NCBI RefSeq assembly: GCF_001005215.1
Contig: NZ_LBNQ01000022.1
Span: forward strand, 1-64,000
DNA from: Lampropedia cohaerens
GTDB lineage: Bacteria > Pseudomonadota > Gammaproteobacteria > Burkholderiales > Burkholderiaceae_C
DNA length: 64,000 nucleotides
Direction of reading: 5' to 3'
Below are positions 19,366 to 36,443 of the stretch, piece after piece (positions within the stretch are counted from its first letter, which is position 1; every line of letters starts with the position of its first letter). Under the pieces are notes generated by a model. The model saw only the letters and a list, made by a program, of their open reading frames with translations. It was not told where the DNA came from and made no database searches. Position numbers and translations under genes: made by a program.

Positions 19366-20391
19366 CTAATTATTGCCACTCGCCTCAAGCTCCTGGTAAT
19401 AGCGGTCAATGCGCTCGACCTCATTCTTGGCACCCATGATGACGGAGACGCGTTGATGCAGCTGCGAAGGCTGCACTTCCAGGATGCGCTGGTGCCCGGT
19501 GCTCGCTGCACCGCCGGCCTGCTCGATCAGCCAGCCCATCGGGTTGGCCTCGTACATCAGGCGTAGCTTGCCCGGCTTTTGCGGCTCGCGCTTGTCCCAC
19601 GGATACATGAAGATGCCGCCACGGCAGAGAATGCGATGGATGTCGGCCACCATCGAGGCAATCCAGCGCATGTTGAAATTCTTGCCGCGCGGGCCATCGG
19701 CGCCCTCTAGGCACTCGTCGATATAGCGCCTGATGGCCGGATCCCAGTGCCGCATGTTGCTCATGTTGATGGAAAACTCCTGCGTGTCTTCGGGAATCCT
19801 GATGTTTTCCTCAACGAGGATAAACGAGCCTTGCTCGCGGTCCAGCGTGAACATGGCCACGCCGTCACCGACGGTCAGTACCAGCGTGGTCTGTGGGCCG
19901 AAGATGCAGTAGCCGGCGGCGACCTGCTTGCTGCCTGGCTGCAGAAAGTCGTCCACCGTCACGCCAGGATGATCCTGAGGCTTTTCCAGGACACTGAAGA
20001 TGGTGCCGATGCTGACGTTCACGTCGATATTGGAGGAGCCATCGAGCGGATCGAACAGCAGCAGATATTCGCCTTGCGGATAGCGGTTGGGCACGACGTA
20101 GATGCCCTCCATTTCCTCGCTGGCCATGGCCGCCAGGTGGCCGCCCCATTCGTTGGCCTCGATCAGCACCTCGTTGGCGATGATGTCGAGCTTCTTCTGG
20201 ACCTCGCCTTGCACGTTCTCGCTGCCAGCCGAGCCCATGACGTGGCCCAGGGCGCCTTTGTTGATCTCAAAGCTGATGCGCTTGCAGGCGCGCGCGACCA
20301 CCTCGATCAGCAGGCGCAGCTGGCCGGGGATCAGGCCGTCGACACGCTGCTGCTCGACAAGATAGCGGGTGAGGGAGACTTTCTTGGACAT
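19366..20391 (-). CDS. fbp: Fructose-1,6-bisphosphatase class I
   Basis: 341 residues from [16 protein letters not shown]. The metal-binding core [22 protein letters not shown] and the substrate region ([16 protein letters not shown]) identify the class I enzyme. It hydrolyses fructose-1,6-bisphosphate to fructose-6-phosphate in gluconeogenesis. I chose the ATG at 20391 on family similarity; a TTG at 20409 is possible, and neither has a good ribosome-binding site. Confidence 0.95.
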
Positions 20392-20712
20392 ACTAAAAAT
20401 TTGATCCAAAACAATGACTTTGTATTCATGCTCTTCGCCTTAGCGTTCTTGAGCAAAGGCATGCGGAATCTTGGTAAAGAGGACGAATCATCGCGCGTGA
20501 TGTGCAGCCGGTGAAGCTTGCTCTATACGGGTAATGGTTCACGAAAACGCCACAACTCATAAAGGCTGAAGGCCGACAGCGCGGAATGCGTAGAGGCTTG
20601 CAATGAAGGTCCCTGCACCAAACAGTGCTCGTATTGTGAACCAACATTGCCCACCGTCGCATGAACGTTGCGAGGGGGCCGGCTAATGTCACTCTCTAAC
20701 AAGAGTGCGATG

Positions 20713-20742
20713 GTGCATGCCTGCACCAATTTTCGTGCATGC
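20713..20742 (+). promoter_or_regulatory. Direct repeat GTGCATGC, 22-bp period: candidate AraC-type site
   Basis: GTGCATGC occurs at 20713-20720 and 20735-20742, centre spacing 22 bp, two helical turns. This is the layout typical of AraC/XylS-family operators. An AraC-family gene lies 2.3 kb downstream at 23036-24001. Confidence 0.45.
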
Positions 20743-20760
20743 GTCGCCAAGACCTCTTGG
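20728..20760 (+). promoter_or_regulatory. Shared cis motif, copy A (oxygenase promoter)
   Basis: TTTTCGT at 20730-20736, CAAGACC at 20748-20754 and TGG at 20758-20760. The same arrangement with identical spacing occurs at 27138-27170; 23 of 33 positions are identical without gaps. Both copies are noncoding and point toward the downstream plus-strand gene. Confidence 0.6.
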
Positions 20761-20864
20761 TGGGCTTTACCTACCATCAACCACATCCATTCACATAGCC
20801 AGAGGCGCTTCCTCTCAGGCTATGTCCTCAACCAATACTGGATGACATCAATAGAAGGTGGTTT

Positions 20865-22082
20865 ATGGTGAATTTTTACAACGATGCTTTTTTTGACGGG
20901 CTGAGCAGCTCTGCTGAGGCGCTGGCGGATGCCAATACGCTGCCACCACTTTGCTATACGGACGCGGAATTCTATGAGTTCGAGAAGGAAGCCCTATTCA
21001 ATCACGAGTGGCTGTGCCTGGGGCGCGAGGACTGGGTGCCCAACGCGGGGGACTACTTCACCACCAAGATCATTGGTGAGCCGTTGATCGTGGCGCGTAA
21101 CCGCGCCGGCGAGATTAAGGCCATGTCCGCGGTATGCCAGCACCGCGCCATGCTCGTGGCCGAGGGTTCGGGCAACACGCGTGCCTTTCTGTGTCCCTAC
21201 CACCATTGGGCCTATAGCCTTGATGGCGAGCTGATCGGCGCGCCGGAGATGGACAGGACTGCCAACTTTAATAAGAAGGACTTTTGTCTGCCGACGTTGA
21301 AGGTTGAAATCTGGCAAGGCTTCGTATTCGTTAACTTTGATCAAGAGGCGCCGCCGCTCGCCCCGCGCCTGAGGGCCATCGACAAAGTACTGGAGAACTA
21401 CGAGCTGTCTGCGGCGCAAGGCCCAAGGCCTATGCCGGCCCCGCGCTACGCGTGGAACTGGAAGGTGATGATGGAGAACAACAATGACGGCTATCACGCC
21501 AACCGCCTTCACCATGGCCCTCTACACGATTTTGCCCCCAGCGCGCTGGCGAAGTTCCCGACGGACCTGCCTGCGGATACGGCCGGGTACTACCGCACTA
21601 ACGGAACGTTGCACGCAGACGCAAGCTTTAACCCTACGCAGAAAGCCGTGTTGCCCGTGTTTCCCAAGCTCACCACCGAAGAGCGTAACCGGTTTCTGTT
21701 CGTCAATGTGCCGCCATCGTTGTCGCTAGTGCTCACCAGTGACATGGTGATGTACCTGATCTTGCGTGCTGATGGCCCTGAACACCATTTCAATGACACA
21801 GGCATTCTGTGCGCTCCAGGAGCCATGAAGGATCCGGCTTTCCAGTACAAGCTGGATATGGTGATCAACGCCACCAACGACATCGTTGCGCAGGATCTGC
21901 ATGTGGACGAACTGGTGCAGGAAGGCCTGCGCTCGCGCTACGCGGTGCGCGGGCGCTATTCGTGGCAGGAGCAGGCCCAGAGCGACTTCAACCAGTGGGC
22001 GGTCAAGCGCTATCAGGATACGTGGTCACGCATCGGCTCTTCGCGCAAGACGATTCCGATTCAAGTTGCAAAGGTGGCTTGA
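20865..22082 (+). CDS. Rieske [2Fe-2S] aromatic-ring/N- or O-demethylating oxygenase, alpha subunit
   Basis: 405 residues. The Rieske cluster ligands are C91, H93, C110 and H113 (CQH...CPYHHW). The mononuclear iron site follows D208-x2-H211-x4-H216 in NNNDGYHANRLHH, with the bridging Asp that carries electrons between subunits. Such oxygenases insert oxygen into aromatic rings or oxidatively demethylate, using electrons from a reductase; the VanB-type reductase at 25943-26995 is the probable partner. No beta subunit is encoded nearby, so it would be an alpha-only enzyme. The ATG at 20865 is preceded by AGAAGGTGG. The substrate is unknown. Confidence 0.88.
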   Translation: MVNFYNDAFFDGLSSSAEALADANTLPPLCYTDAEFYEFEKEALFNHEWLCLGREDWVPNAGDYFTTKIIGEPLIVARNRAGEIKAMSAVCQHRAMLVAEGSGNTRAFLCPYHHWAYSLDGELIGAPEMDRTANFNKKDFCLPTLKVEIWQGFVFVNFDQEAPPLAPRLRAIDKVLENYELSAAQGPRPMPAPRYAWNWKVMMENNNDGYHANRLHHGPLHDFAPSALAKFPTDLPADTAGYYRTNGTLHADASFNPTQKAVLPVFPKLTTEERNRFLFVNVPPSLSLVLTSDMVMYLILRADGPEHHFNDTGILCAPGAMKDPAFQYKLDMVINATNDIVAQDLHVDELVQEGLRSRYAVRGRYSWQEQAQSDFNQWAVKRYQDTWSRIGSSRKTIPIQVAKVA

Positions 22083-22117
22083 GTGTCGGCTTTACTTGTT
22101 GCGCAAGGAGAGCGGTG

Positions 22118-22942
22118 ATGATGCAGAGAATGCCGGTGTTGTTCATCGGCCACGGCAATCCCATGAATGCGCTGGATGACAACGTCTTTACGCGAAGCTG
22201 GGCAACGCTCGTGGACGAAGTCCCCATTCCGAGGGCGATCCTGGTGATTTCTGGACATTGGCTGACGCGCGGGGTGGCGGTCACAGCAATGGAGCAGCCA
22301 CGGACAATCCACGATTTCGGCGCCTTTCCACGCGCACTGTTTGAGGTCCAGTATCCGGCGCCAGGCAGCCCTGAAATTGCCCGTGAGATTGCACAAGCCT
22401 TAGCGCCAGCGTCCGTGAAGATGGACCTGACCTGGGGGCTGGACCATGGTGCCTGGTCAGTGCTGGTGCATGCCTATCCCAACGCACAGATTCCAGTACT
22501 GCAGCTCAGCATCGATGTGACACAGCCGCTTGCCTATCACTACGAGATGGGGCAAAGACTGCGCGCATTGCGTGACTGTGGAATTCTGATCATTGGCTCA
22601 GGCAACGTCGTGCACAACCTCGGTGCAATGGATTGGTCGCGGCCCGAGCGCGTCTTTGACTGGGCTGAACGTTTCCAGTCGCTGGTGCGGCAGTCGATCG
22701 AAGACGGGGCCGAACAACGCAAGCTGGTTGACTTTCCCAAGCTTGGGCTGGATGCACAGCGGTCTATTCCCAGCGCCGATCACTACCTGCCGTTGCTGTA
22801 TGTGTTGGGCAGCCGAGATGCCAGTGATACGGTAGCGTTCTCAACCCCGGTCTGCATCCACGGATCGCTGAGTATGCTAAGTTTCTCATTCACGCCGACC
22901 AAGCAAAGGGCGGTGGCAGAATCTGACGCCATAATGGCCTGA
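22118..22942 (+). CDS. LigB/DODA-type extradiol ring-cleavage dioxygenase
   Basis: 274 residues, similar to 4,5-DOPA-extradiol dioxygenases (YgiD). It begins MMQRMPVLFIGHGNPMNAL with the metal-binding HGNPM motif, followed by ISGHWLTRGV, TWGLDHGAWSVL and GSGNVVHNL, which carry the other conserved histidines. Class III extradiol enzymes open catechol rings next to the hydroxyls. The start at 22118 has AAGGAG 7 bases upstream; the gene follows the oxygenase by 35 bases and is probably co-transcribed, giving an oxygenate-then-cleave pair. A housekeeping YgiD role is the alternative. Confidence 0.85.
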   Translation: MMQRMPVLFIGHGNPMNALDDNVFTRSWATLVDEVPIPRAILVISGHWLTRGVAVTAMEQPRTIHDFGAFPRALFEVQYPAPGSPEIAREIAQALAPASVKMDLTWGLDHGAWSVLVHAYPNAQIPVLQLSIDVTQPLAYHYEMGQRLRALRDCGILIIGSGNVVHNLGAMDWSRPERVFDWAERFQSLVRQSIEDGAEQRKLVDFPKLGLDAQRSIPSADHYLPLLYVLGSRDASDTVAFSTPVCIHGSLSMLSFSFTPTKQRAVAESDAIMA

Positions 22943-23035
22943 AGCGCCATAACGACCGTGATGATGCAGCCTGGATGAACTTCCTGCCAGGCACGCTGTG
23001 TCTGGCAGGAGTTTTGTGTCCCAGTGCGGTGATGT

Positions 23036-24001
23036 CTACGCCGCTTGCGGGAATACCGCCTGGCGGCAGGCGCGCGGCGATTCGTTGTACTGGATGCGGA
23101 ATGAGCGGCTGAAGTGCGCCGCGTCATTGAAGCCCCAGCGAAAGCAGATGTCGGAGATGGACAGATGTCTGTGCTCCTTACTGAGCAGTTCACTGCGGCA
23201 GTGTTCCAGTCGGCGTTCACGCACGTACTGGCTGAAGCTGGTGCCCGCCATTTCGAAGAGCTTCTGAATGTATCGCGGTGACACGCCCTCCTGTTGCGCG
23301 ATGGTGCCAAGGTTCAGATTAGGCTCCTTGAGCTGGTTCTCTATGGAATCACAAATCTGCTGGTAGTGCATCAGCTTGCCGCTGCTGCCAAACGCCTCGA
23401 TCATGGTGTGCGGCGCGATGCTCGAGACAAGAAACTCCAGCACCGTGACCTCGATGGGCCGCATGGAGTGCGCCGTGATGCCTTCGAGATTTTTCGACAC
23501 GCAGGTCAGAAAGCGAGCGAACACGTCGTTGAGCGCCTCGCTGGCCGACAGGTGACCAACCCCCAGCAGGGTAGGGTTGAGCAGCCGGTGGTGCAGCAAA
23601 GTGCGTGGCACCTTGATGTACAGCATCTCGAAGTCAGAGTCGATGGAGAGGCTGGCATCCGTTCCGGTAGACCCGAACATGATGTCGCCCCGGTGGATCC
23701 GAATAGTGCGGCCCTTGTGCCGCAAGGCCACGGAATCGGCATCGACAATGCTGATCCACAGCGAATATGGCTGCGGCGAGAGCTTGCCGGCCATGGTCTG
23801 GGGCGATGCGTGGATGCGGGTGAACTCCAGTCCCTGCGGCGATGTTACCGTGATCAGGTCGGCTGTAACGCCACGTGCCTGCGTGTCACGGGCCTGGGCG
23901 GGAGGCAGGTGGACGCGGTGCAGGGTTTCGTTCCACTTCTCTGCGCAGTTGATTGCGCCAAATTGGGTGGTGGATACTTTCCAAACGTGGGGATCTTGCA
24001 T
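23036..24001 (-). CDS. AraC-family transcriptional regulator
   Basis: 321 residues. An N-terminal AraC_binding_2-like cupin region (about 30-190) is followed by the double helix-turn-helix domain (about 215-315) with LGTIAQQEGVSPRYIQKLFEMAGTSF-type first HTH and ISDICFRWGFNDAAHFSRSFR-type second HTH. It has its own leader after the terminator at 24095-24129, with GAGGAG before the ATG. It is the only dedicated regulator in the island and so the best candidate for controlling the shared motif and the GTGCATGC repeats. Confidence 0.9.
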   Translation of the reverse strand: MQDPHVWKVSTTQFGAINCAEKWNETLHRVHLPPAQARDTQARGVTADLITVTSPQGLEFTRIHASPQTMAGKLSPQPYSLWISIVDADSVALRHKGRTIRIHRGDIMFGSTGTDASLSIDSDFEMLYIKVPRTLLHHRLLNPTLLGVGHLSASEALNDVFARFLTCVSKNLEGITAHSMRPIEVTVLEFLVSSIAPHTMIEAFGSSGKLMHYQQICDSIENQLKEPNLNLGTIAQQEGVSPRYIQKLFEMAGTSFSQYVRERRLEHCRSELLSKEHRHLSISDICFRWGFNDAAHFSRSFRIQYNESPRACRQAVFPQAA

Positions 24002-24094
24002 CGTGACTCCTCTCGCCCCAGGGGCATCGAGTGGTAATTTTTATAAGTAGCATCCACGCAATAATCGGGCCAGTTCGAACGCATCGGCGCGGGC

Positions 24095-24129
24095 AAAAAG
24101 AAACCTCGCTACCGGACTAGGTGCGAGGT
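24095..24129 (-). terminator. Rho-independent terminator after the nitroreductase-family gene
   Basis: On the minus strand ACCTCGC and GCGAGGT form a 7-bp stem (24103-24129, 13-base loop), followed by TTTCTTTTTG. It separates the reductase-amidase-nitroreductase operon from the AraC gene. Confidence 0.75.
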
Positions 24130-24163
24130 GTTCGTGGCCCCCGTCAAGGGGATTTCCTGGCGT

Positions 24164-24760
24164 TCAGGCAAATACTTTGAAACGCGCGTCACGCGGCATG
24201 ACGGCCTTGTCGCCAAATGGTGCAGCGTTGGCACCAAAAGGCATCTGCGCCCGCAGCGTCCACTCCGCGGGAATGCCCCATTCCGCAGCGATGACTGCAT
24301 CGATAAGCGGGTTGTAGTGCTGTAAGCTCGCGCCGATGCCGGCTTCGGCCAGGGCCGTCCAAACCGCCAGTTGTGCCATGCCGCTGGACTGCTCGGACCA
24401 GACTGGGAAGTTGTCGGCATAGGCCGCAAACTGCTCTTGCAAACCAGCGATCACGCCCTGGTCCTCGAAGAACAGAATGGTCCCTGCGCCTGCGGCAAAG
24501 CCGTCTAGCTTCGCTTGCGTGTCGGCAAATTCATCGGCAGGGATCAGTGGCCGTAGTGCATCCTTGGCAAAAGTCCACACCTTGTCACTGGCACCGCCAA
24601 AGAGAATGACAACGCGTGAGCTTTGAGAATTGAAGGCCGACGGAGCAGCCTCGACGGCTTGCTGGATCAGCTCGGTGGTGGCTTCCCGGCTGATCGGTAA
24701 TGTCTTGTCAAGCGCGTACTGGGTACGGCGCTGTCTGAGCAGGTCGATGGTGGTTGACAT
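24164..24760 (-). CDS. Nitroreductase-family protein (Frm2-like FMN oxidoreductase)
   Basis: 198 residues. It starts MSTTIDLLRQRRTQYALDK and contains APSAFNSQSSRVVILFG, the FMN-binding N-terminal pattern of nitroreductases, and WSEQSSGMAQLAVWTALAEAGIGASLQHYNP. Family members reduce nitro groups, quinones or other acceptors with NAD(P)H. It is the last gene of a three-gene operon, 27 bases after the amidase. AAGGAA precedes the ATG. It may be a detoxification step rather than part of the main pathway. Confidence 0.85.
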   Translation of the reverse strand: MSTTIDLLRQRRTQYALDKTLPISREATTELIQQAVEAAPSAFNSQSSRVVILFGGASDKVWTFAKDALRPLIPADEFADTQAKLDGFAAGAGTILFFEDQGVIAGLQEQFAAYADNFPVWSEQSSGMAQLAVWTALAEAGIGASLQHYNPLIDAVIAAEWGIPAEWTLRAQMPFGANAAPFGDKAVMPRDARFKVFA

Positions 24761-24787
24761 GGAGTGGGTTCCTTTCAGGTAATGAAC

Positions 24788-25858
24788 TTACAGTTTTGGA
24801 AAAATGTTGCGCGGGATGCGCAGATGTGCGCCTTGGCGTGAATCGACGACCTGCGTAATGCCCAGATCGCCGGCTACGCTCAGGAGGGAGTACGCATCAT
24901 TGCGACTCAGGCGCAATTGCTCGGTCAGCAGCTTGATGGCGTCGACACTGGCGTTGCGCACGGCCTGGTTCATGTCTTCGTCGAAGCCATGCACGATCCA
25001 GAATTCCGGTGTTTCGAGCAATGGCGACGGGAAGTGGAAGTCCTTGCGCAGGATGATTTGCATCGTCACGTTCAGCGACGATTCGATGGCCGTTCCACTG
25101 ACTTCGCCGTCGCCCTGAGAAACGTGCGGGTCGCCGATGGAAAACAGGGCGCCCTCAACGGCCACGGGGTAGTACATCGTCGCACCCGCGCCGATGCGCC
25201 AGTTGTCGATGTTGCCACCGTGCAGGCCGGGGGGAATGGTGCTGGTGCGGCCATTGACAGCCGGTGCCACGCCAGCGGTGCCAAGATGGGGGCGTACCGG
25301 CACGCGCACGCCGTTCAGGGCAGTCTGGCGGTCACACTCCGGGCAGCGGGTGATGCGGCCGGGCGTCATGTACTTTTCCTTGACGTCGTAGGCATATATC
25401 GCGCTGGCATTGTTGGAGTTGGGATCGAGCTCATAGATGGTGATGCGCTCGGTCTCGTCAAATTCCTGGTAAAGATGGCCCCAGTTGGCCGCCAGGTTGG
25501 AGCCATAGTGGTTGCGCGGCGTCATGGAGAGATAGCGCACCTCCAGCATGTCGCCTGGTTTGGCATCCTGGATGAAGATCGGTCCCGTCATGATGTGCAC
25601 ACCGGGGTTGCGGTCTTCCTCCGGGATCTCCTTGAAAACGCGCCAGCTGCGCGCATCAAGCATCAAGTCTGGGTCGTCGCCAGCGTGATGGGTCAGGGCT
25701 TCGGCGTATACCAAGTCCCCACTCTGAATGGTGAGCACTGGCGCCTGCGCCGGGTCGAAGTATCCCCAATGCACCGTCTCCGGCGTGGCATAGAGCTGAT
25801 GGTAGGCGTTCGGTACCGGATGGTTGCGGGTTTCAGGGGCGGAGGGATTGAGGGCCAT
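24788..25858 (-). CDS. Acetamidase/formamidase family protein
   Basis: 356 residues with the FmdA_AmdA fold signature: GDLVYAEALTHHAGDD, TGPIFIQDAKPGDMLEVRYL, PPGLHGGNIDNWRIGAGATMYYPV, and SIGDPHVSQGDGEVSGTAIE. The family hydrolyses small amides such as formamide and acetamide to ammonia and the acid. A CPEC pair near residue 170 could bind metal. It lies between the reductase and the nitroreductase genes, so it probably releases an amide nitrogen in the same pathway. Confidence 0.9.
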   Translation of the reverse strand: MALNPSAPETRNHPVPNAYHQLYATPETVHWGYFDPAQAPVLTIQSGDLVYAEALTHHAGDDPDLMLDARSWRVFKEIPEEDRNPGVHIMTGPIFIQDAKPGDMLEVRYLSMTPRNHYGSNLAANWGHLYQEFDETERITIYELDPNSNNASAIYAYDVKEKYMTPGRITRCPECDRQTALNGVRVPVRPHLGTAGVAPAVNGRTSTIPPGLHGGNIDNWRIGAGATMYYPVAVEGALFSIGDPHVSQGDGEVSGTAIESSLNVTMQIILRKDFHFPSPLLETPEFWIVHGFDEDMNQAVRNASVDAIKLLTEQLRLSRNDAYSLLSVAGDLGITQVVDSRQGAHLRIPRNIFPKL

Positions 25859-25942
25859 GTGGAGAGCCTTTTGCGTCGAGTTGCCCGTGCGGGCGGAAAG
25901 AAAACCTGGCGTGTTGGCGGTATCGCTGTGGTGCGTTGGTGC

Positions 25943-26995
25943 TTACAAGTCCAGCACCAGCAGTGGGCTGTGAGCGCGTGAGCAGCAGGGCGTGAATTCG
26001 GTCTGCCCGGCCTGCTCTTCAGGGCTGTAGAAAAGATCGCGGTGATCGGCCTCGCCGGAGAGGAGCCTGGTTCGGCAGGAGCCGCAGACGCCTGCGGCGC
26101 AGGAGATGGGGATGACCACCCCTGAGCGTGCCAGCGCGTCGGCCACCGTTTCTTCAGCACCCACGGTAATGCGCTGTCCGGTGGACGCGATCTCGACCTG
26201 GAACTCCGCGTCGCCAGCCTGGGGCTTGGGCAGTTCTGCACTGAAGCGCTCGAAGTGAATGGCCTCCTCCGGCCAGCCCAGGGCGAATGCAGCGTCCTGC
26301 ACCGCGTCAAGCAGTCGGCCAGACCCGCACAGAAACACCTCCGTGCGCGCGTCATACATGCCCAGTGACTCGGCCAGGTCGGCGCGGCGCCCGCCAGCGT
26401 CCCGCGTGCAGTAGAGGTGGATGCTGGCCAGATCAGGGCGCAGTGCCGCCATGGCTTTGAGTTCGCTGACAAATGCCATGTCGCGGGCATGGCGGCCGCT
26501 GTAGTGCAGCGTGAACGGGAGCCCGGCATCGAACCGCGCGTACGCCATGGCCAGGATGGGCGTGATGCCAATGCCACCTGCGATCAACAGCGCGTGCTCC
26601 GTGCGCATCAGCGAACTGGCGGCGAACACATTGTTGGGCCCACGCACCCATAAGGCTTCGCCGCGTTGCACGCGCTCGAACACCTCGATGGAACCACCGC
26701 GACCATGCGCCTCACGCTGGACGGCCAGGCGAAAGCATCGACCCGGTCGGTTGCACAGCGAGTATTGCCTGGGCCCGGCCTCCAGCAGGAGTTCCAGGTG
26801 CGCGCCGGGCGCATAGGTCTGTCCGGCTGCAGCGCCGTCCAGTTCGAAGACGATTGTTACGTCGCCCACCAGTTCCCAGTGCGTGACCCGGCAGGCGAAG
26901 GCATCGCGGGGCAATTGCATGGGTGTATAGCCAGGCGTACTGGCTACCGGCATGTTTGCTCGCACTGTTGCGGGCTCGGCCATGGCAGTAAACAT
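25943..26995 (-). CDS. VanB/phthalate-dioxygenase-reductase type oxidoreductase
   Basis: 350 residues in three modules: flavin-binding barrel (RQYSLCN), NAD-binding domain (IAGGIGITPILAMA) and a C-terminal plant-type ferredoxin (CAAGVCGSCRTRLLSG and a final Cys in FTPCCSRAH). It passes electrons from NADH through FMN and a 2Fe-2S cluster to a Rieske oxygenase. The likely partner is at 20865-22082, about 4 kb away on the opposite strand. It is the first gene of the minus-strand operon, divergent from the TauD gene. Confidence 0.92.
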   Translation of the reverse strand: MFTAMAEPATVRANMPVASTPGYTPMQLPRDAFACRVTHWELVGDVTIVFELDGAAAGQTYAPGAHLELLLEAGPRQYSLCNRPGRCFRLAVQREAHGRGGSIEVFERVQRGEALWVRGPNNVFAASSLMRTEHALLIAGGIGITPILAMAYARFDAGLPFTLHYSGRHARDMAFVSELKAMAALRPDLASIHLYCTRDAGGRRADLAESLGMYDARTEVFLCGSGRLLDAVQDAAFALGWPEEAIHFERFSAELPKPQAGDAEFQVEIASTGQRITVGAEETVADALARSGVVIPISCAAGVCGSCRTRLLSGEADHRDLFYSPEEQAGQTEFTPCCSRAHSPLLVLDL

Positions 26996-27137
26996 AAGGA
27001 TGGGCCCTCACGGTTGATGGTTGCGGTGCACGTGAAAGCAATGCGCACCCTAGTTCCCAGTCAGTGTAGGCACGGGGTTTGCACGCGTCTTGCTCCCATG
27101 CGTATCAGCACTTGTCCATGGGATGGCTGCTGCTGCA

Positions 27138-27170
27138 ATTTTTCGTTCGCGCTGCAACAAGACCGCCTGG
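27138..27170 (+). promoter_or_regulatory. Shared cis motif, copy B (TauD/porin/binding-protein operon)
   Basis: TTTTCGT at 27140-27146, CAAGACC at 27158-27164 and TGG at 27168-27170, the same arrangement and spacing as copy A at 20728-20760. It lies in the 255-base divergent region between the reductase (minus) and TauD (plus) genes, so it may serve both. An inverted repeat GGTGC/GCACC (27029-27033 and about 27049) lies upstream. Confidence 0.6.
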
Positions 27171-27250
27171 CACGTTGAGATGACACTTGCAAGTAACGAG
27201 GTGGCGTGTGGCCGACCTTGCAACGACCTGATGGAAACAGGAGAAAACTC

Positions 27251-28330
27251 ATGCAAGCCGTAATCGATTTGGAGCCCGTACGCACTGCCGCGGCATGGCG
27301 CGGTGATGTGCTGGTGCAGCAATCCGACTGGATCTATATGCTCAGCGATGCACAGGTGCAGGAGCTGGAATCGCTGGGCGAGCGGTTTGTGGAGGACGAT
27401 CCTGATCTGCGCTTCGTAAGCCCGCAGGACTACCCATTGGTAGTGTGCCGGGACGCAGTAACGGAGTGGCTTGAGGATCTGAATACAGGGCGTGGCTTTC
27501 GCCTTGTGCGAGGCCTGAAGACGCACCTTTATTCGGATGCATTGTCGGCCGCCATTTACTACATCCTTGGTGTGCACATGGGCGAGCCGATGCGGCAGAA
27601 CGAAAAGGGCGATCTGATCGGCCACGTGTATGCCACCTCGGACAAGAAACTCGAAGATCCGGGGGCGCTGTCCGCCAAGATCCGCGACAAGTTGCCGTTC
27701 CATTCGGACAGCTCCGACGTGGTGGCGTTGATGTGCCTGCGGCCAGCCAGGGAGGGTGGTGCGTCGCGGCTGGTCTCCGGTGCGCAGATCTACAACGAGA
27801 TCCTCGAGCGCCGTCCGGACCTGGCACCGTTGCTGCTTGAGCCGTTCCACTGGGACTGGCGCCGCCAAGATCACGAGGCACCCGCCAACACCTATGTGTC
27901 GCCGGTGGTGAGCATGGTTGATGACGTCTTCAGCATCTATGCCGGCTCTGCCTACGTATTTACGGCCCAGGAGTATCCGGAGGTGCCGCGTCTGACGCCT
28001 GAGCAGATCGAGGTGCTCAAGCTGTTCGATGACATTACCTATGAAGAGGGTATGGCTATCGACATGGATTTCCGTCCTGGCGACATCCAGTGGCTCTCGA
28101 ACTATGCCGCGCTGCACTCGCGCACGGTGTTTTTCGACCATCCGGAGCCGCAGCGCCGTCGCCACCTGATGCGCCTGTGGTTGCATACCCGCGAGCCGCG
28201 CAAGCTGGTCAAGCCATTCGGACGTTCGGTCGTGCAGGGCCGGCAGGCGCACCGTGACGCCAGCGCCAGCGATGACCAAGGGCGCTTTCACATCGTTGAG
28301 GCAGCCGTGCCGCGCCTGGCCGACGAGTAA
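27251..28330 (+). CDS. TauD/TfdA-family Fe(II)/2-oxoglutarate dioxygenase, long form
   Basis: 359 residues. The iron facial-triad start H151-x-D153 is in LPFHSDSSD; the distal His is in ALHSRTVFFDH and the 2-oxoglutarate-binding Arg in the RRRHLMRLWLH region. It is longer than classical TauD (about 280) because of an N-terminal extension of about 80 residues. The ATG at 27251 has ACAGGAG upstream, which rules out the in-frame earlier start at 27206. It heads the operon TauD-porin-binding protein. Substrate unknown. Confidence 0.85.
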   Translation: MQAVIDLEPVRTAAAWRGDVLVQQSDWIYMLSDAQVQELESLGERFVEDDPDLRFVSPQDYPLVVCRDAVTEWLEDLNTGRGFRLVRGLKTHLYSDALSAAIYYILGVHMGEPMRQNEKGDLIGHVYATSDKKLEDPGALSAKIRDKLPFHSDSSDVVALMCLRPAREGGASRLVSGAQIYNEILERRPDLAPLLLEPFHWDWRRQDHEAPANTYVSPVVSMVDDVFSIYAGSAYVFTAQEYPEVPRLTPEQIEVLKLFDDITYEEGMAIDMDFRPGDIQWLSNYAALHSRTVFFDHPEPQRRRHLMRLWLHTREPRKLVKPFGRSVVQGRQAHRDASASDDQGRFHIVEAAVPRLADE

Positions 28331-28344
28331 ACGCAACGCGTATC

Positions 28345-28385
28345 GCGCCGGTTCGGTCTGAACGGCGCTGTCATGCGGCCGCATG
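28345..28385 (+). other. Hairpin plus perfect palindrome between TauD and porin genes
   Basis: GCGCC-G-GTTC (28345-28354) pairs with GAAC-GGCGC (28360-28368) with one bulged base. It is followed immediately by the 14-base palindrome CATGCGGCCGCATG (28372-28385). There is no T run, so it is more likely a mRNA-processing or attenuation structure than a full terminator. Confidence 0.45.
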
Positions 28386-28481
28386 CTGGGCGGCCCACTC
28401 TTTCCCCACGTTCCTAGCGCTGCTTATCTGGCAGGTGCAATGGATTTCCTTGTCCCTTCAATTCTGAAATGGCCCACGACA

Positions 28482-29561
28482 ATGTCTAGATATCCTTTGC
28501 TTGCGACACTCACGGCGGCATCCTGCCTGAGTTCCCTGGCCCATGCGCAATCGTCCGTCACGGTCTACGGTGTGGCTGACGTGGGCATGACCTACATCAG
28601 CAATGAGGGCGGGAGCAGTACGACGGCGCTCAAGGATGGCGTGTTGTTCGGCAACCGCCTTGGCTTCAGGGGCCAGGAGGATCTGGGCGGGGGCTACGCT
28701 GCGCACTTCACCCTGGAGCAGGGCTTGAACCTCGGCACGGGCCAGTTCGGGCAGGGGGGGCGCGCCTTTGGCCGGCAATCCTTCGTCGGTCTGAAAACCC
28801 CTTATGGCAACTTCAGCGCCGGGCGCCAATACGACGCGATCAAGGACTACCTCAATCCGCTGAATATCGGAGGCTGGGCCACCACCTACGCAGGCCACCA
28901 TGGCGATTTCGACCGCATCAGCGGGGGCCGCGTGGATGGCTCGGTGCGTTACGCCTCGCCCGATCTCGGTGGTTTGACCTTCACGGCCCTGTATGCCGCC
29001 AAAACGTCCAACAGCTTGCAAACCGTGAGCGCGGGTGCGGGATACAAGACCGACAAGCTGAGCCTGGGAGCGGCGTACTTTCGCCAGAAAGGGGGCACGG
29101 TCTACCCCGATCTGCAAATGGGCTTCAGCGACTTCCTCGGCGTGGCCATGTCTGGTACCGGCACGCCGGTCACGCTGGATACGCAGGAGACGATAGGTCT
29201 GGGTGGTTCCTACGATTTTGGCGCTTTCAACATCGTCGCAAACGCAACGACCACCAAGATGGAACTGGGCACCAACAGTGAGCGGCAGAAGGTGTTCGAA
29301 GTAGGCAGCAAGATCAAGGCGTCGGACAAGGTCACCGCATTTGTCGCATGGCAGCATTCGCGTATGGCAGGCGCCAAATGGAACCAGCCCACGATGGGCG
29401 CGTGGTATAGCCTGTCGCGCAGAAGCTGGTTCTATACCGCCGTTTCCTACATGAAGGCGTCCAGCGGCATCCAGGCCAACCAGGGTGCCGGTTTTTACTT
29501 CGGCAATTCCAGTAACAGCGAGCAAACCTCGGTGCGTCTGGGTATGGTGCACATGTTCTGA
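28482..29561 (+). CDS. Gram-negative trimeric porin (OmpC/Omp32-like)
   Basis: 359 residues. The signal peptide ends in SSLAHA before QSSVTVYGVADVGM, the standard N-terminus of beta-proteobacterial porins. The body has NRLGFRGQEDLGGGYAAHFTLE, the FGRQSFVGLKTPYGNFSAGRQYD block that folds into loop L3, and a C-terminal Phe (LGMVHMF) for Bam-dependent assembly. I chose 28482 because the signal peptide starts there; 28440 is an in-frame alternative with a better ribosome-binding site. It is placed between TauD and the binding protein and probably admits the pathway substrate. Confidence 0.93.
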   Translation: MSRYPLLATLTAASCLSSLAHAQSSVTVYGVADVGMTYISNEGGSSTTALKDGVLFGNRLGFRGQEDLGGGYAAHFTLEQGLNLGTGQFGQGGRAFGRQSFVGLKTPYGNFSAGRQYDAIKDYLNPLNIGGWATTYAGHHGDFDRISGGRVDGSVRYASPDLGGLTFTALYAAKTSNSLQTVSAGAGYKTDKLSLGAAYFRQKGGTVYPDLQMGFSDFLGVAMSGTGTPVTLDTQETIGLGGSYDFGAFNIVANATTTKMELGTNSERQKVFEVGSKIKASDKVTAFVAWQHSRMAGAKWNQPTMGAWYSLSRRSWFYTAVSYMKASSGIQANQGAGFYFGNSSNSEQTSVRLGMVHMF

Positions 29562-29575
29562 AGGAGTATGGCTAT

Positions 29576-31105
29576 ATGCGACGCAGAGATTTTGTAAGGA
29601 TTGCTCCCGCTGGCGCTCTTGCTGGCCTGCTTGCCCAGGCGGGCGTGCGGGTGGTGCAGGCGCAGGGCATGCAGGCGTTGACCATTGCGTTTCCCCACGA
29701 TGTTCCCACCTGGGATCCCATCGCGTTTGTGCGCCCCCACGTCACCTCGCTGTTCAAGTGTGTGTTCGACCAGCCGCTGGAGTACAACGCCGATTCGGTG
29801 CTGAGCCCCGGTGTCATCACGGCGTATCGCTGGACCGACGACAGTGGATTGATACTGGAGCTGGACTTCCGCGATGATGTCTACTTTCACAATGGTGACA
29901 AGTTCACTTCGGAGGACTTCAAGTTCACCTTCCTGGACCGACCAAGAGCCGACAAGAGCCTCCAGCTGGGCTATGTCTGGGGTGTCATCACGGATATCGA
30001 GACGCCAACGCCTACCAAGGCCATCGTGCACTTCTCCGCACCGATGGTCACGGCGCCGCAATACCTTGGCTTTGCGGGCTCATTCCTGGTACCCAAGAAG
30101 TATTTTGAGGAGGTGGGCAAGGAAGCGTTCATTGCCAGGCCGGTGGGTACCGGCCCCTATCGCCTGATCGCGTACGAGGCGGACAGCCGCATGGTGCTGG
30201 AGGCCTTCGAGGGCTACTGGGGTGGTGTGCCGTCGTACAAGCGCGTCATCATACAGATCGTGAAGGATTCCACCGCCCGCGTGTCTGCCGTGCAAGCCGG
30301 TCAGGTCGATTTGACCTACGGTGTGCCGATGCGCGAAGCAGTGCGTCTGGGCGGGTTGCCCAATCTCACGGCCGAACTGAGCGCCACAGTTGATACCTAT
30401 ATCGTCCACATGGCCAACCATGGTGTGCTGCAAGACAGAAATGTGCGCCTTGCCATGCACCACGCGATTGACAAGCAGGCCTTGAGCAAGGCGTTGTTCA
30501 ACAACGTCGCCAAGCCCGTGCATGCGCCGTCGCCGCCGGGAACACCCTCTTACGACGACACCTTCACGTTTGCCTACGACCCGGCCAGGGCCGCTGAATT
30601 GCTGCAGGCTTCGGGCTACAGCACCGAGAAGCCAGTGGCCTTCACCTTCTATACCACCAACGGCGCGCAACCTTCGGACTTCGACCTCGCGCGAGCGCTG
30701 GTGCAGATGTGGAAGCGGGTAGGCATTGAGGCCAACCTGGAGGTGATCGACGGCCCGCAATTCCAGATGCGTGCGGCGGCCGGCGAAATGGATGGCCCCA
30801 TGCTATGGTGCTGGACCAACTCCAGCGCCGATCCGGAGCTGTATTCCGGTTCGTATCTCAATCCGAGCACCATCTTCTCGGTCTGGCGCAGCAACGATAT
30901 CAAGGAGAAGCTCGATCCCTTGCTGGTGGAGGTGGATTACGAAAAGCGTATTGCCCAGTACAAGGACTTCGAGGCCTGGGTGGTGGGGGAGGGGTACTCG
31001 CTGCCGCTGCTGCAAGGCGTCGCCACCGTGGTGCGTTCCAACGCGGTTCGCGGTTATGTCCCGTTTAGCAATGGCTGGGTGCTGCCGGCGTACTGGAAGG
31101 CATGA
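29576..31105 (+). CDS. ABC transporter substrate-binding protein, peptide/opine/nickel type (SBP_bac_5), copy 1
   Basis: 509 residues. The N-terminus MRRRDFVRIAPAGALAGLLAQAG has a twin-arginine-like signal. The SBP_bac_5 core is visible: LDFRDDVYFHNGDKFTSEDFKFTF, PVGTGPYRLIAYEADSRMVLEAF, NVRLAMHHAIDKQALSKALF. It is a clear paralog of the protein at 36576-38120. No permease gene lies in its own operon, so it probably delivers ligand to the transporter at 32236-36226. It starts 14 bases after the porin stop and ends before a terminator. Confidence 0.92.
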   Translation: MRRRDFVRIAPAGALAGLLAQAGVRVVQAQGMQALTIAFPHDVPTWDPIAFVRPHVTSLFKCVFDQPLEYNADSVLSPGVITAYRWTDDSGLILELDFRDDVYFHNGDKFTSEDFKFTFLDRPRADKSLQLGYVWGVITDIETPTPTKAIVHFSAPMVTAPQYLGFAGSFLVPKKYFEEVGKEAFIARPVGTGPYRLIAYEADSRMVLEAFEGYWGGVPSYKRVIIQIVKDSTARVSAVQAGQVDLTYGVPMREAVRLGGLPNLTAELSATVDTYIVHMANHGVLQDRNVRLAMHHAIDKQALSKALFNNVAKPVHAPSPPGTPSYDDTFTFAYDPARAAELLQASGYSTEKPVAFTFYTTNGAQPSDFDLARALVQMWKRVGIEANLEVIDGPQFQMRAAAGEMDGPMLWCWTNSSADPELYSGSYLNPSTIFSVWRSNDIKEKLDPLLVEVDYEKRIAQYKDFEAWVVGEGYSLPLLQGVATVVRSNAVRGYVPFSNGWVLPAYWKA

Positions 31106-31316: not shown

Positions 31317-32186
31317 TTACGCGACCGGGCGTTCTCCCTTGATGGTCACGCGGTAGCCGGAGCGAACATGGGGAAAGTAATCCCACACCGCATGGTGCTG
31401 GGCGTAGCGGTTGTCCCAGAAGGCGATGGAGTGAGGCTGCCAGCGAAAGCGCACCTGGAACTCCGGGTCCTGGCAGTGCTCGGCCAGGAAGTTCAATATG
31501 CCCTTGGACTCGCAGCGCGGCAGGCCGACGATTTCGGTGGTGTATTGCGCGTCGGCGAACAAGGCTTTGCGTCCGGTCACGGGGTTGCGCCGCACAATGG
31601 GGTGCGCATGGGAGGGGAAGCGCCTGGTCACGTCCGTGGTGTACTTGCGGTAGACGTGTTCGCCATCGTGTATGGCATACAGGCCATCAAGGTACTGTTT
31701 CATCTTGTCGGTCAGTGCCTCATAGGCGGCGTACATGCTGGCAAACAGTGTGTCCCCGCCGAACCTCGGTACGGTATGCAGGTACAGGATGCTGCCCATG
31801 GGCGGCTCCTCGTTGCAGCTGAGGTCGGAGTGCCACGATTCCCCGGCAATGCCGGTGGAATGCTCGTCCGCGTGGATTTGCACGACGTATGGCTGGTTTT
31901 CCACCCCGCCGACGCCGCCGGAATGGGTAATCAGCTCACCGAAGTAGCGGCCAAAGCGCTGGTGGCTTTCGAAGTCGAGCGGCTGGTCACGGAAGAAGAT
32001 CACCAGGTGGTCCTGAATGGCCTGCTGCAGCTCGCGCACCTGCAGCGCGCTCAATGGCATTGTCAGATCCACTCCGGAAATCTCTGCGCCCAGGTGCGGG
32101 CCATAGGGCTCGACTTGAATGCTTTGGTAGTGGTATGGCGTTGTCATGGGGATGTGAATGCTTTGGTAGTGGTATGGCGTTGTCAT
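31317..32186 (-). CDS. TauD/TfdA-family 2-oxoglutarate-dependent dioxygenase
   Basis: 289 residues from the first start, 276 from the second. It shows the classic TauD layout: VEPYGPHLGAEISGVDL, iron ligands in ESWHSDLSC, FGGDTLFASMYAAYEAL, and the distal His/Arg region FWDNRYAQHHAVWDY. Members hydroxylate sulfonates, phenoxyacetates, sulfate esters or similar small acids. The first 13 codons are a perfect duplicate of the next 13, so the protein has two possible starts (32186 and 32147). It lies 49 bases downstream of the ABC ATPase gene and is the last gene of that operon. Confidence 0.9.
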   Translation of the reverse strand: MTTPYHYQSIHIPMTTPYHYQSIQVEPYGPHLGAEISGVDLTMPLSALQVRELQQAIQDHLVIFFRDQPLDFESHQRFGRYFGELITHSGGVGGVENQPYVVQIHADEHSTGIAGESWHSDLSCNEEPPMGSILYLHTVPRFGGDTLFASMYAAYEALTDKMKQYLDGLYAIHDGEHVYRKYTTDVTRRFPSHAHPIVRRNPVTGRKALFADAQYTTEIVGLPRCESKGILNFLAEHCQDPEFQVRFRWQPHSIAFWDNRYAQHHAVWDYFPHVRSGYRVTIKGERPVA

Positions 32187-32235: not shown

Positions 32236-34227
32236 TCAGGCGGCTTCTTCCTGCGGCCATGGCATGGCGGTATCGGCTGGCGGAACCGCCCGGATCAGAC
32301 TGCGGGTGTAGGGGTGCTGCGGGTGGGCCAGCACCTGCTCGGTCGGGCCTTGCTCCACCACCTGGCCGCGGTGCATGACCAGCATGCGTGAGCACAGGTA
32401 GCGCACCACGGCCAGATCGTGCGAGATCAGCAACAGCGAGATCTTGTGCTCCTTGCGCAGCGCGAGCAGCAGGTTGAGGATTTGCGCCTGCACAGAAACG
32501 TCGAGCCCTGAGACGATTTCATCGGCAACCAACAGCTGTGGCAGCTCACACAAGGCGCGGCCGATGTTGACGCGCTGACGTTGCCCTCCGGACATTTGCG
32601 GCGGGTAGGCATCGAGCATGTCGGCGGCCAGGCCAACATCGGCGGCCAGTTGCCGAGCCCGCGCTTCAATAGCGCTGTGCAGGTTGGGGTGTACCTCCAT
32701 GGACTGGGTGAGCAGGCTGCGCACCTTGCGTCGCGGGTTGAGCGCCGAGCGCGAATCCTGAAAGATCATCTGAATCGACTCAATGCGGCGGCGCTGTTGC
32801 TCGGCATCCATCGTCAGCGGCTGGCCATTGAGGAAGATCTGGCCGCCACTGGGGCTCTCCAGGCCCATGATGAGTTTGGCCAGCGTGGACTTGCCACTGC
32901 CGCTTTCCCCGACGATTCCGATGAACTCGCCTGGTGCGATGTCCAGGGAGACATTGCTGACGGCGTGGGTGCCTGCGCTCCCGCGCGTCTTGCCAGGGTA
33001 TGTCTTCTCGAGGTGCCGTATCTGCAGGAACGGCGTGGGTGATGGCGCCAGCGCGCCCGTGGCCGCCACTTGCGTGGGCTCGCCTTCCTCGCCGGGACTG
33101 TTGATGGGGTAGGGCGCTGCATGGCCGTGTACGCAGCGCACCATGTGCTGGCCGCCCTGCGCGCCACTGGTCACCATCGCCGGCACGGCCTGTGCACAGC
33201 GGGCGTCCGAGACGGCGCAGCGCGGTGCAAAACGGCAGCCTTGCAAATGCGGGAACTCGGACAGCCCGGGCATGCTGCCAGGCAGGGAAAACAGACGCCG
33301 CCGGGGGCCGCTGAGTTCGGGGTTGGCGCGCTGCAGCGCTAGGGTGTAGGGATGCAGTGCCCGCTTGAAGATGGCTTTGGCGGGGCCGGTCTCCATGGTC
33401 TCGCCGGCGTAGAGCACGACCAGGTCCCTGGCCACATGGGCGGCAAGGCCCAGGTCATGCGTGACGAAGATCACGCCCGTGCCCCGGCGCGCCTGCAGCT
33501 TGCGAATCAGCGTAATGATGTGCGCCTGCGTGCTCGCATCCAGTGCCGTGGTGGCTTCGTCCGAGATGACCAGATCGGGATTGCTGGCAAATGCCATGGC
33601 GATCATCACACGCTGACACTGCCCGCCGGAGATCTGGAAGGCGTAGCGGTTCAGCATGGCTTCCGGCTGCGGCAATCTGACTTCGTCCAGCATTTCGATG
33701 GCGCGCGTGCGCGCCTCCTGCGTGCCCATGCCGAGACGCTGCAGGTGTTCCATGAATTGCTGCCCGATGGTCAGCACCGGATTGAGAGCCGTCATGGGCT
33801 CCTGCGGTATGAAGGCAATGCGCCGGCCCAGCAGACGCCGGTGATCCTGGCTGCTGATGCGCAGCAGATCCTGATCGCCGAAGTGGATGCTGCCTTCAGT
33901 CACCTCGAAACCACTCGGAAGCTGGCGTGCGATCACCTTGCCGATCATGCTTTTGCCTGCGCCCGACTCACCCACCAGCGCCAGCGTGGTGCCGCGACGC
34001 ACATTGAAGGAGATCTTGCGCAGTACTTCCATACCGGCGGAAGGTTGTCCCTGATGGGTGTCGCGGTTGCGCGCGATCAGGGTGACACCTTCCACTGCCA
34101 GCACGACCGGCTCCGTGGCGGGCTGGCTGGCGGTGTGCTGGCCGGTCCACGCCGGAGACAACGCCGGCGGCAGGGGCTGCTCCGGCAAGGGGCGAACGGG
34201 TATGCGAGTTTGGGGAACGGCTGACAT
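32236..34227 (-). CDS. Fused double ATPase of a peptide/opine-type ABC importer (DppD-DppF fusion)
   Basis: 663 residues containing two complete ATPase domains. Domain 1 (about 40-360): Walker A GESGAGKSMIGKVIA, signature ISGGQCQRV, Walker B LVISDEATTALD, and the oligopeptide-transporter C-terminal cysteine region CRFAPRCAVSDARCAQA. Domain 2 (about 395-660): Walker A GESGSGKSTLAKLIMG, signature MSGGQRQRV, Walker B LLVADEIVSGLD. In most systems these are two genes. It lies 2 bases after the permease gene in an operon with both permeases and TauD2. Confidence 0.93.
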   Translation of the reverse strand: MSAVPQTRIPVRPLPEQPLPPALSPAWTGQHTASQPATEPVVLAVEGVTLIARNRDTHQGQPSAGMEVLRKISFNVRRGTTLALVGESGAGKSMIGKVIARQLPSGFEVTEGSIHFGDQDLLRISSQDHRRLLGRRIAFIPQEPMTALNPVLTIGQQFMEHLQRLGMGTQEARTRAIEMLDEVRLPQPEAMLNRYAFQISGGQCQRVMIAMAFASNPDLVISDEATTALDASTQAHIITLIRKLQARRGTGVIFVTHDLGLAAHVARDLVVLYAGETMETGPAKAIFKRALHPYTLALQRANPELSGPRRRLFSLPGSMPGLSEFPHLQGCRFAPRCAVSDARCAQAVPAMVTSGAQGGQHMVRCVHGHAAPYPINSPGEEGEPTQVAATGALAPSPTPFLQIRHLEKTYPGKTRGSAGTHAVSNVSLDIAPGEFIGIVGESGSGKSTLAKLIMGLESPSGGQIFLNGQPLTMDAEQQRRRIESIQMIFQDSRSALNPRRKVRSLLTQSMEVHPNLHSAIEARARQLAADVGLAADMLDAYPPQMSGGQRQRVNIGRALCELPQLLVADEIVSGLDVSVQAQILNLLLALRKEHKISLLLISHDLAVVRYLCSRMLVMHRGQVVEQGPTEQVLAHPQHPYTRSLIRAVPPADTAMPWPQEEAA

Positions 34228-34229
34228 GG

Positions 34230-35159
34230 TTAACCTCTGACTCTCTCAAGCAGGCGGGGATCGAGCTTCTTGCGCAAGCCGTCGCCCAGCAGGGTGCAGG
34301 CCAGGACGGTCACGATCATGCAGACCACGGGGGCGATCAGCCCATAGGGTGCGCTGAAAACGCTTTTGAGCCCGTCGCTGATCATCATTCCCCAGGTGGG
34401 TGTGGACGGCGCCATCGAGACACCGACGAACGAGAGCACCGCTTCGGCGATGATGGCGATACCCATTTCTATGCTCAGCAATGCCAGCAGTGTTGGCATC
34501 AGGCCGGGCATGATGTCCTTGCGAATGACCTGCAACGGCGTCGCTCCGGTCAGCCGGGCTGCGGCGATGTAGTCGCGCCGGCGCAGTACCAGGACTTCGC
34601 TGCGCAGTACGCGGCAAAAGCGGGTCCAGTCCACTGCGACGATGGCGATGATCACATTGGTCAGTCCGGGCGAAAGCGCCACCATGAACACCATCGCCAG
34701 CACCACGGCGGGAAAGGACATCCAAACGTCCACCATGCGCATGATCAGCCAGTCGACCTTGCCGCCCCAGTAGCCGGCCATGATGGCCAGGGGCACTCCC
34801 ACCAGCGCGGCCCCCAGCGGGGCGAGCACGGCGACTAGGGCGACCACGCGGGTGGAATAGATCAGGCGCGACAGAATGCATTGCCCCAGCGAATCAGTGC
34901 CGAGCGGAAACGCACGCAGGCCGTCGGCTGCCCACATTGGCGGCAACAATGTGTTGAGCAAGTCCTGCTCATTGGGGTCGTGCGGGGCAAGCCAAGGGGC
35001 AAAGATGGCGGTGAGAAACAGCAGCGCCAGACCAGCAGTGCCGAGCATGACGCGGGTATCCGAGAACACGCGTAGCCAGGCAGCAGCCTTGCTCATGCGC
35101 GGCCGAGGCCGCGGGGCGGTGGAGGAGGCCGGGGGGTGAGGATAGGTCGTGGTGTTCAT
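34230..35159 (-). CDS. ABC transporter permease, DppC type
   Basis: 309 residues with six membrane helices. The DppC N-terminal domain (VMLGTAGLALLFLTAIFAPWLAPHDPNEQ) is followed by GTDSLGQCILSRLIYSTR and the EAA loop DYIAAARLTGATPLQVIRKDI. The ATG at 35159 overlaps the stop of the DppB-type gene by 4 bases; the longer open frame upstream is not part of the gene. Confidence 0.93.
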   Translation of the reverse strand: MNTTTYPHPPASSTAPRPRPRMSKAAAWLRVFSDTRVMLGTAGLALLFLTAIFAPWLAPHDPNEQDLLNTLLPPMWAADGLRAFPLGTDSLGQCILSRLIYSTRVVALVAVLAPLGAALVGVPLAIMAGYWGGKVDWLIMRMVDVWMSFPAVVLAMVFMVALSPGLTNVIIAIVAVDWTRFCRVLRSEVLVLRRRDYIAAARLTGATPLQVIRKDIMPGLMPTLLALLSIEMGIAIIAEAVLSFVGVSMAPSTPTWGMMISDGLKSVFSAPYGLIAPVVCMIVTVLACTLLGDGLRKKLDPRLLERVRG

Positions 35160-36226: not shown

Positions 36227-36443
36227 AACCAGTTTTCCGTGGGTTAGAGCGCTGCGTTCTACTGCGCGGGGTTGCGATGCATGGATACCAAGCAATCGGC
36301 GTGCCCTGTTCATCATCGTGCTCTGGCTATTGCAAGGCACGGTTTCATGGTAGTGACAGTGCCATGCAGATTCTTGCCATGTAGCGCACCGCAACTTGTC
36401 CGCAGGGGGCCCCGCGCGAAGGCACGACAAGTGCGCAGGCATG

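Follow-up and report, generated by a model that had tools for sequence, protein, structure and literature searches.

Four operons of a predicted uptake and breakdown cluster in Lampropedia cohaerens share a candidate AraC/XylS-type operator

Two described AraC-family activators offer the closest comparison for the system reported here. XylS, at the Pm promoter of the Pseudomonas putida TOL plasmid, has a site described as two direct repeats of 15 base pairs (bp) (PMC5481539), and GliR (PA3027) of Pseudomonas aeruginosa is reported to need both of its motifs for full activation (PMC8151288). Here we analyse a comparable arrangement in Lampropedia cohaerens, in positions 1 to 64,000 of contig NZ_LBNQ01000022.1 (assembly GCF_001005215.1; this whole stretch of 64,000 nucleotides is referred to as the window), where a two-part element with the consensus CAA-N6-GTGCGC-N7-CAAGAC stands before four operons. 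We consider it likely, on the sequence evidence set out below, that this element is the operator of an AraC/XylS-type activator which unites the four operons, and that they are switched on together by the AraC-family regulator encoded among them. In the Pm account, XylS resembles the window in being an AraC-family activator of an aromatic-breakdown operon with direct-repeat half-sites, the nearer of which lies by RNA polymerase; as described there, its half-sites are TGCA-N6-GGTA, whereas those of the window are CAA-N6-GTGCGC and CAAGAC, 22 bp apart, and, unlike Pm, the window has one operator type that would serve four operons, uptake included (PMC5481539). The GliR report likewise describes one motif upstream of the -35 sequence and one overlapping it, as in the window, but with different motifs (YYGGCGHTDTYSGMC and GGAYAWCGCCG) and other target genes (PMC8151288).

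The element was defined from other bacteria. An oxygenase-based scan of the genomes of many species yielded 79 loci, of which 57 (L006 to L062) were used; in the window's own family, 299 genomes were searched and the oxygenase was found at an E-value of 1e-100 or better only in the window's genome. For training, 244 regions were taken from the 57 loci (window excluded), each reaching at most 350 bp upstream of a gene from one of seven homologous families. An unguided motif search on them, started from 25 random seeds, gave T..TCGTGCGC-N7-CAAGAC in its best run and, on widening to 38 columns, the consensus given above. Scored with this matrix, the window's sites rank as those starting at 27133 (plus strand, 29.2 bits), 20723 (plus, 19.9 bits), 27080 (minus, 19.5 bits), 31535 (minus, 18.5 bits) and 36364 (minus, 16.9 bits), and the two promoter sites that a first-pass annotation of the window had paired by eye thus take first and second place with a matrix made without the window. 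Three letter-shuffled windows reached a maximum of 12.6 bits. Across the 57 loci, 194 sites scored at least 16 bits against one with the reversed matrix (training regions included), none was counted at or above 16 bits in 400 kb of the source genome (where the top score is given as 16.0), and 10 Mb of third-order random sequence, read on one strand, held 16 sites of at least 16 bits, nine of at least 16.9 and one of at least 19.5. None of 21 distant control loci (L063 to L084 without L066, which falls in that range and carries the cluster) had a site of at least 15 bits. Two other window matches were rejected: that at 31535-31572 (minus) lies inside the second TauD gene and was taken as coding noise because no TAnnnT follows it and it is absent from the profile matches in the window, and a weak match (10.8 bits) at 20439 on the minus strand, before the fructose-bisphosphatase gene, is of a strength that the shuffled sequences also reach.

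The remaining four sites are each followed on the same strand by a predicted -10 box at an offset of +49 from the operator start, as in the relatives. Operator 1 (20723-20760, plus), before the oxygenase gene, comprises CCA (20726-20728), GTGCAT (20735-20740) and CAAGAC (20748-20753), with 17 bp between AAGACC (20749-20754) and its predicted box TACCAT (20772-20777). Operator 2 (27133-27170, plus; CAA at 27136-27138, CAAGAC at 27158-27163) is the window's best and faces the genes for TauD, porin and binding protein, with a weak predicted box, GACACT (27182-27187). Operators 3 and 4 are new: the former (27080-27117, minus) faces the reductase operon and has TACACT at 27063-27068, the latter (36364-36401, minus) faces the operon for permeases and an ATP-binding cassette (ABC) ATPase and has TACCAT at 36347-36352. 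Operators 2 and 3 stand back to back, 15 bp apart, in the intergenic region 26996-27250. As a separate observation, operator 1 holds a perfect palindrome, CCAAGA-CC-TCTTGG (20747-20760), which operators 2, 3 and 4 lack.

The distance to the -10 box is fixed. Among 160 non-redundant sites of the relatives, TAnnnT occurs, counted from the operator start, at +49 in 54 and at +50 in 24 (78 of 160 together), and for each of the remaining offsets between 38 and 99 the count is 6 or fewer; the -10 columns lay outside the matrix, and this spacing, like the conservation of the element, comes directly from the computed comparison. Because the -10 box follows 17 bp further on at this fixed distance, the -35 hexamer falls on AAGACC. 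TAnnnT stands at +49 behind operators 1, 3 and 4 of the window; the GACACT of promoter 2 recurs at the same offset before the TauD gene of L058, and the TauD promoters of L006 and L007 carry GACAGT (+50) and GAGAGT (+49), so that, in these four cases only, a weak GACACT-like box may be a feature of TauD promoters. The two parts of the element form a direct repeat, 22 bp from CAA to CAA, with the nearer half at -35, as is found in AraC/XylS operators; the second repeat shows no more than a faint echo of the GTGCGC half. This arrangement corresponds to the AraC/XylS geometry that is typical of activators.

The first-pass annotation had described the likeness between operators 1 and 2 as a pattern, TTTTCGT-N11-CAAGACC-N3-TGG, within the 33-mers 20728-20760 and 27138-27170. 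Both copies are present on the plus strand with zero mismatches (20730-20760 and 27140-27170), the 33-mers agree without gaps at 23 of 33 positions as stated, and the window has no further match at up to three mismatches, a tolerance at which 2 of 100 window shuffles gave two or more matches. The whole-genome scan that the annotation had suggested (3,158,922 bases, 3.16 Mb) returned two exact matches, which are these same sites, and at up to three mismatches four matches against five for the reversed control. When the best ungapped 33-mer was sought between dinucleotide-shuffled copies of the two intergenic regions, 23 identities were matched 2 times in 300 trials when one orientation was allowed and 4 times when either was. 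The pair on its own is therefore only modestly unlikely, and the comparison with other bacteria is the convincing part. Flanking gene coordinates confirm that both sites are noncoding: the first lies between the fructose-bisphosphatase gene (19366-20409, minus) and the oxygenase gene (20865-22082, plus), the second between the reductase gene (25943-26995, minus) and the TauD gene (plus, ATG at 27251), and therefore in a divergent promoter region. Both sites do face their genes on the plus strand, with the correction that the second also has the reductase gene opposite. The boundaries had to be redrawn: the core stands, but the leading CAA (CCA at 20726-20728; 27136-27138) mostly precedes the 33-mer, which therefore starts inside the element, part of the N11 spacer (GCGC) is conserved in the relatives, and the final TGG carries almost no information there. 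The proposal that the oxygenase and uptake operons form one regulon is supported by the promoter profile of the relatives and by the element before homologous genes in other genera; it counted two operons where there are four, because the operators at 27080-27117 and 36364-36401 had been missed.

In the 57 loci, clustering of open frames found the formamidase in 44, the extradiol dioxygenase in 34, a stand-alone AraC in 28, an AraC fused to an acetamidase/formamidase domain in 26, the reductase in 12, the porin in 10, and TauD, binding protein, OppB and ATPase in 11 each. Counting only codirectional sites of at least 14 bits near the first possible start codon, the operator stands before the oxygenase (25 of 57), formamidase (20 of 42), porin (8 of 10), the TauD family of operon 3 (5 of 9) and two further TauD families (11 of 15 and 9 of 16), and less often before the binding protein (4/14), a short-chain dehydrogenase (7/17), a 163-residue family guessed to be flavin reductases (7/25), the extradiol dioxygenase (2/35) and an isochorismatase (1/11). 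By the same count it is missing before OppC (0/7), the ABC ATPase (0/11), luciferase-like proteins (0/18), two major facilitator superfamily transporter families (0/11 and 0/10), a TonB receptor (0/9), an F420 oxidoreductase (0/6) and AraC itself, stand-alone (0/28) or fused (0/24). These figures are probably too low, because first codons are often placed too early. A looser count (any strand, 12 bits, training regions) gave 38 of 60 for the oxygenase, 12 of 14 for TauD, 8 of 10 for the porin, 7 of 18 for the reductase, 6 of 14 for the binding protein, 25 of 73 for the formamidase and 8 of 55 for AraC, none of these eight being forward. Three Pseudomonas loci have two operators pointing apart between TauD and reductase genes with a spacing of 14 bp (L006, region 5505-5594, 30.6/20.3 bits; L007, 20068-20157, 30.3/11.8 bits; L058, 5570-5659, 24.5/24.0 bits), so that the back-to-back arrangement is conserved and not the sites alone. 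Plasmid clusters from outside the training set gave a mixed picture, that of Novosphingobium resinovorum carrying four sites of 14.7 to 20.5 bits, one of them with a -10 box.

Within the source genome the element is nearly restricted to this cluster. A combined operator plus -10 pattern, allowing up to two mismatches, gave 34 matches against 22 for the reversed control; operators 3 and 4 are the only exact ones, operator 2 is alone in having one mismatch, and all three lie in the cluster. The operator pattern in its correct register returned 45 matches at up to three mismatches against 43 for the control; its best match is operator 2 (one mismatch), three of the six two-mismatch matches, namely operator 3, operator 4 and the TauD coding match, fall in the cluster, and operator 1 has three mismatches. 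A profile (R1) was built from 49 promoters of the relatives picked for TAnnnT at +49, and in its genome search, with 150 of 816 candidates scored, the top three were operators 3, 2 and 4 (20.1, 18.1 and 13.4 bits; E-values 0.002, 0.009 and 0.28), operator 4 being only just ahead of the fourth match at 13.2 bits. Operator 1 was the fourth profile match in the window (11.3 bits). Among 39 other genomes of the genus, family and order, three had a match at an E-value of 0.05 or below where about two are expected, these E-values being rough.

The gene at 23036-24001 (minus; HTH_18, HTH_AraC and AraC_binding_2 domains) encodes the cluster's own AraC-family regulator, which, judged from sequence and by analogy with XylS and GliR, is most likely the protein that binds the four operators. 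Its family membership is clear from HTH_18 at residues 234-314 and HTH_AraC at residues 274-313, both above cut-off, whereas it falls below the NCBIfam cut-offs for the equivalogs FeaR (105.8 bits, cut-off 199), AndR (44.6 bits, cut-off 350) and GbdR (30.5 bits, cut-off 480). FeaR is the best-scoring NCBIfam model and AndR matches too, both far below their cut-offs; the likeness is by protein models alone, as operators of FeaR and AndR did not turn up in the literature searched.

A genuine operator shared by the four promoters but bound by a regulator other than the cluster's AraC seems to us unlikely, though this reading has facts on its side: sites are present in 7 of the 9 relatives' loci that have no AraC in view, and a search of the genome with the window AraC found one other match, of 34% identity over residues 220-313 in the DNA-binding part. 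The direct-repeat form and the overlap with -35, as in XylS and GliR, speak against it, as does the company the sites keep, since an AraC of either the stand-alone or the fused group occurs in 48 of the 57 loci and at least one site in 45 of these 48. The DNA-binding domain is also conserved beyond the sensor part: identity to the window AraC averages 57% in the former and 30% in the latter for the stand-alone set, and 56% and 24% for the fused set, with close likeness in both helix-turn-helix stretches. Lastly, 22 loci from other genomes of the family, picked by an out-of-register pattern, were re-scored with the matrix in correct register, and five had a site of at least 15 bits: in L118 and L129 the site has a -10 box and adjoins an AraC gene, which again argues for an AraC reader, and in L111, L116 and L127 it has neither a -10 box nor an adjacent AraC. 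In L184 (5722, minus) and L185 (5529, minus), from two genomes of the family other than the source genome, an operator with a -10 box lies beside an AraC gene; further AraC proteins may therefore read this operator.

It is highly improbable that the likeness reflects general promoter elements only, with CAAGACC as a -35 box, TAnnnT as the -10 and no specific regulator. AAGACC does have GAC in common with TTGACA, and its distance to the -10 box is exactly 17 bp, but CAAG is nearly invariant and its CAA is unlike the TTG of a -35 box, there is another conserved part (CAA-N6-GTGCGC) further upstream, and ordinary promoters are common in any genome whereas the three best operator plus -10 matches all fall in this cluster. 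Chance, or a recent duplication of a promoter segment, is less credible still: for all that shuffling reached 23 of 33 and the pattern was picked after the sites had been seen, we reject it as contradicted by the comparative data, the same element standing before homologous genes in other genera, where it was found without the window, at a fixed -10 distance and with the likeness ending outside the element.

Besides the sites in loci lacking a visible AraC, several observations weigh against an AraC-read operator common to all four operons. Three loci with a fused AraC (L048, L049 and L050) have no site. The upstream half of operator 1 (CCA, GTGCAT) is poor; with two mismatches to the operator plus -10 pattern, this site is one of 31 such matches in the genome, and it is not among the six genome-wide profile matches listed, for which 150 of 816 candidates were scored. 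The -10 box of operator 2 lacks TA (GACACT). One of the 39 other genomes (G680) has a profile match of 23.4 bits, better than any in the source genome, in a 3-kb locus without a cluster gene or AraC. A plasmid cluster of Kozakia baliensis from outside the training set has one weak site (14.8 bits, TAnnnT at +50), and a profile search of that cluster found no match. In the relatives, the strict count gave only 1 of 12 for the reductase and 0 of 11 for OppB; the latter perhaps because transport genes there follow the oxygenase on one strand, as in L006 to L013, L019, L058 and L060, whereas in the window they are separate from it and have their own operator.

If the cluster's AraC is the activator, as we favour, each operator would offer it two parts, CAA-N6-GTGCGC and CAAGAC, both starting with CAA and 22 bp apart, with the gene-proximal part on the -35 position, 17 bp from the -10 box. 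By analogy with XylS and GliR, an AraC dimer would occupy both halves and contact RNA polymerase from the -35 position, so that the bound activator would offset a poor -35 element and recruit the polymerase (class II activation). Together with an inducer it would switch on uptake and breakdown of one substrate at once. As the AraC gene is the last behind operator 3, it could raise its own level by positive feedback; this presumes that operon 2 reads through to it, and the 162-bp gap before the gene may hold a promoter of its own.

Operon 1 would comprise the Rieske-type oxygenase gene (20865-22082, plus; Rieske and Ring_hydroxyl_A domains) and one for a LigB-type extradiol dioxygenase of the 4,5-DOPA dioxygenase family (22118-22942, plus; LigB domain; NCBIfam PRK10628, 344.7 bits, cut-off 233). 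Operon 2 would run on the minus strand from the ferredoxin-type reductase (25943-26995; Fer2 and NAD_binding_1 domains) through an acetamidase/formamidase-family protein (24788-25858) and a nitroreductase-family protein (24164-24760), both recognised with Pfam, to AraC. Operon 3, on the plus strand, would hold the TauD-like dioxygenase (27251-28330; Pfam), a porin (28383-29561; Porin_4) and a family-5 solute-binding protein (29576-31105; SBP_bac_5). Operon 4, on the minus strand, would begin with an OppB-kind permease (35156-36226; BPD_transp_1; start chosen by us) and continue with a second permease (34230-35681, start uncertain), a double ABC ATPase (32236-34227) and, last, a second TauD-family dioxygenase (31317-32186), these three again from Pfam. 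The cluster appears to take up and break down one substrate, perhaps a nitrogen-containing aromatic compound; when solved structures were searched with five of its proteins (the oxygenase, TauD, formamidase, AraC and binding protein), nothing closer than distant relatives came up. The Kozakia baliensis plasmid pKB16680_1 (L196), typed as mobilizable, carries a similar gene set (oxygenase, extradiol dioxygenase, formamidase, reductase, nitroreductase, flavin reductase and AraC).

In 26 of the 57 loci the AraC part runs on in one open frame into an acetamidase/formamidase domain, giving proteins of 770 to 817 residues (for example L035:11882-14335, plus, with 25 others between L021 and L061; the domains were identified with Pfam on one of the 26). 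Loci with a fused AraC often have a free formamidase nearby as a separate protein. In 45 free enzymes, 74 polar or aromatic positions are nearly invariant; at 43 of these, at least 20 of the 26 fusions have kept the residue. The fusion is perhaps more novel than the operator itself: in the literature searched for the operator, the gene set and the fusion we recognised no description, which, given partial coverage, is weak evidence of absence. A bolder proposal, which we hold to be possible but rather doubtful, is that one AraC subfamily, stand-alone or fused to a formamidase, reads one operator across Alpha-, Beta- and Gammaproteobacteria and runs an undescribed catabolic pathway, the fused enzyme domain sensing or consuming an intermediate and so coupling the state of the enzyme to transcription.

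The regulation itself would be of the already known AraC/XylS kind. With this analysis, a likeness first noticed by eye becomes a defined regulon: it now has a binding-site matrix, a candidate regulator and four promoters whose start regions are predicted. The uptake and breakdown pathway that it would serve recurs in several groups of proteobacteria, and we could not match it to any pathway already described. Further genes of this pathway can be sought with the operator, and knowing which inducer AraC responds to would indicate the substrate, whilst the enzyme-fused regulators provide a direct test case for the question whether transcription can be under the control of an enzyme domain.

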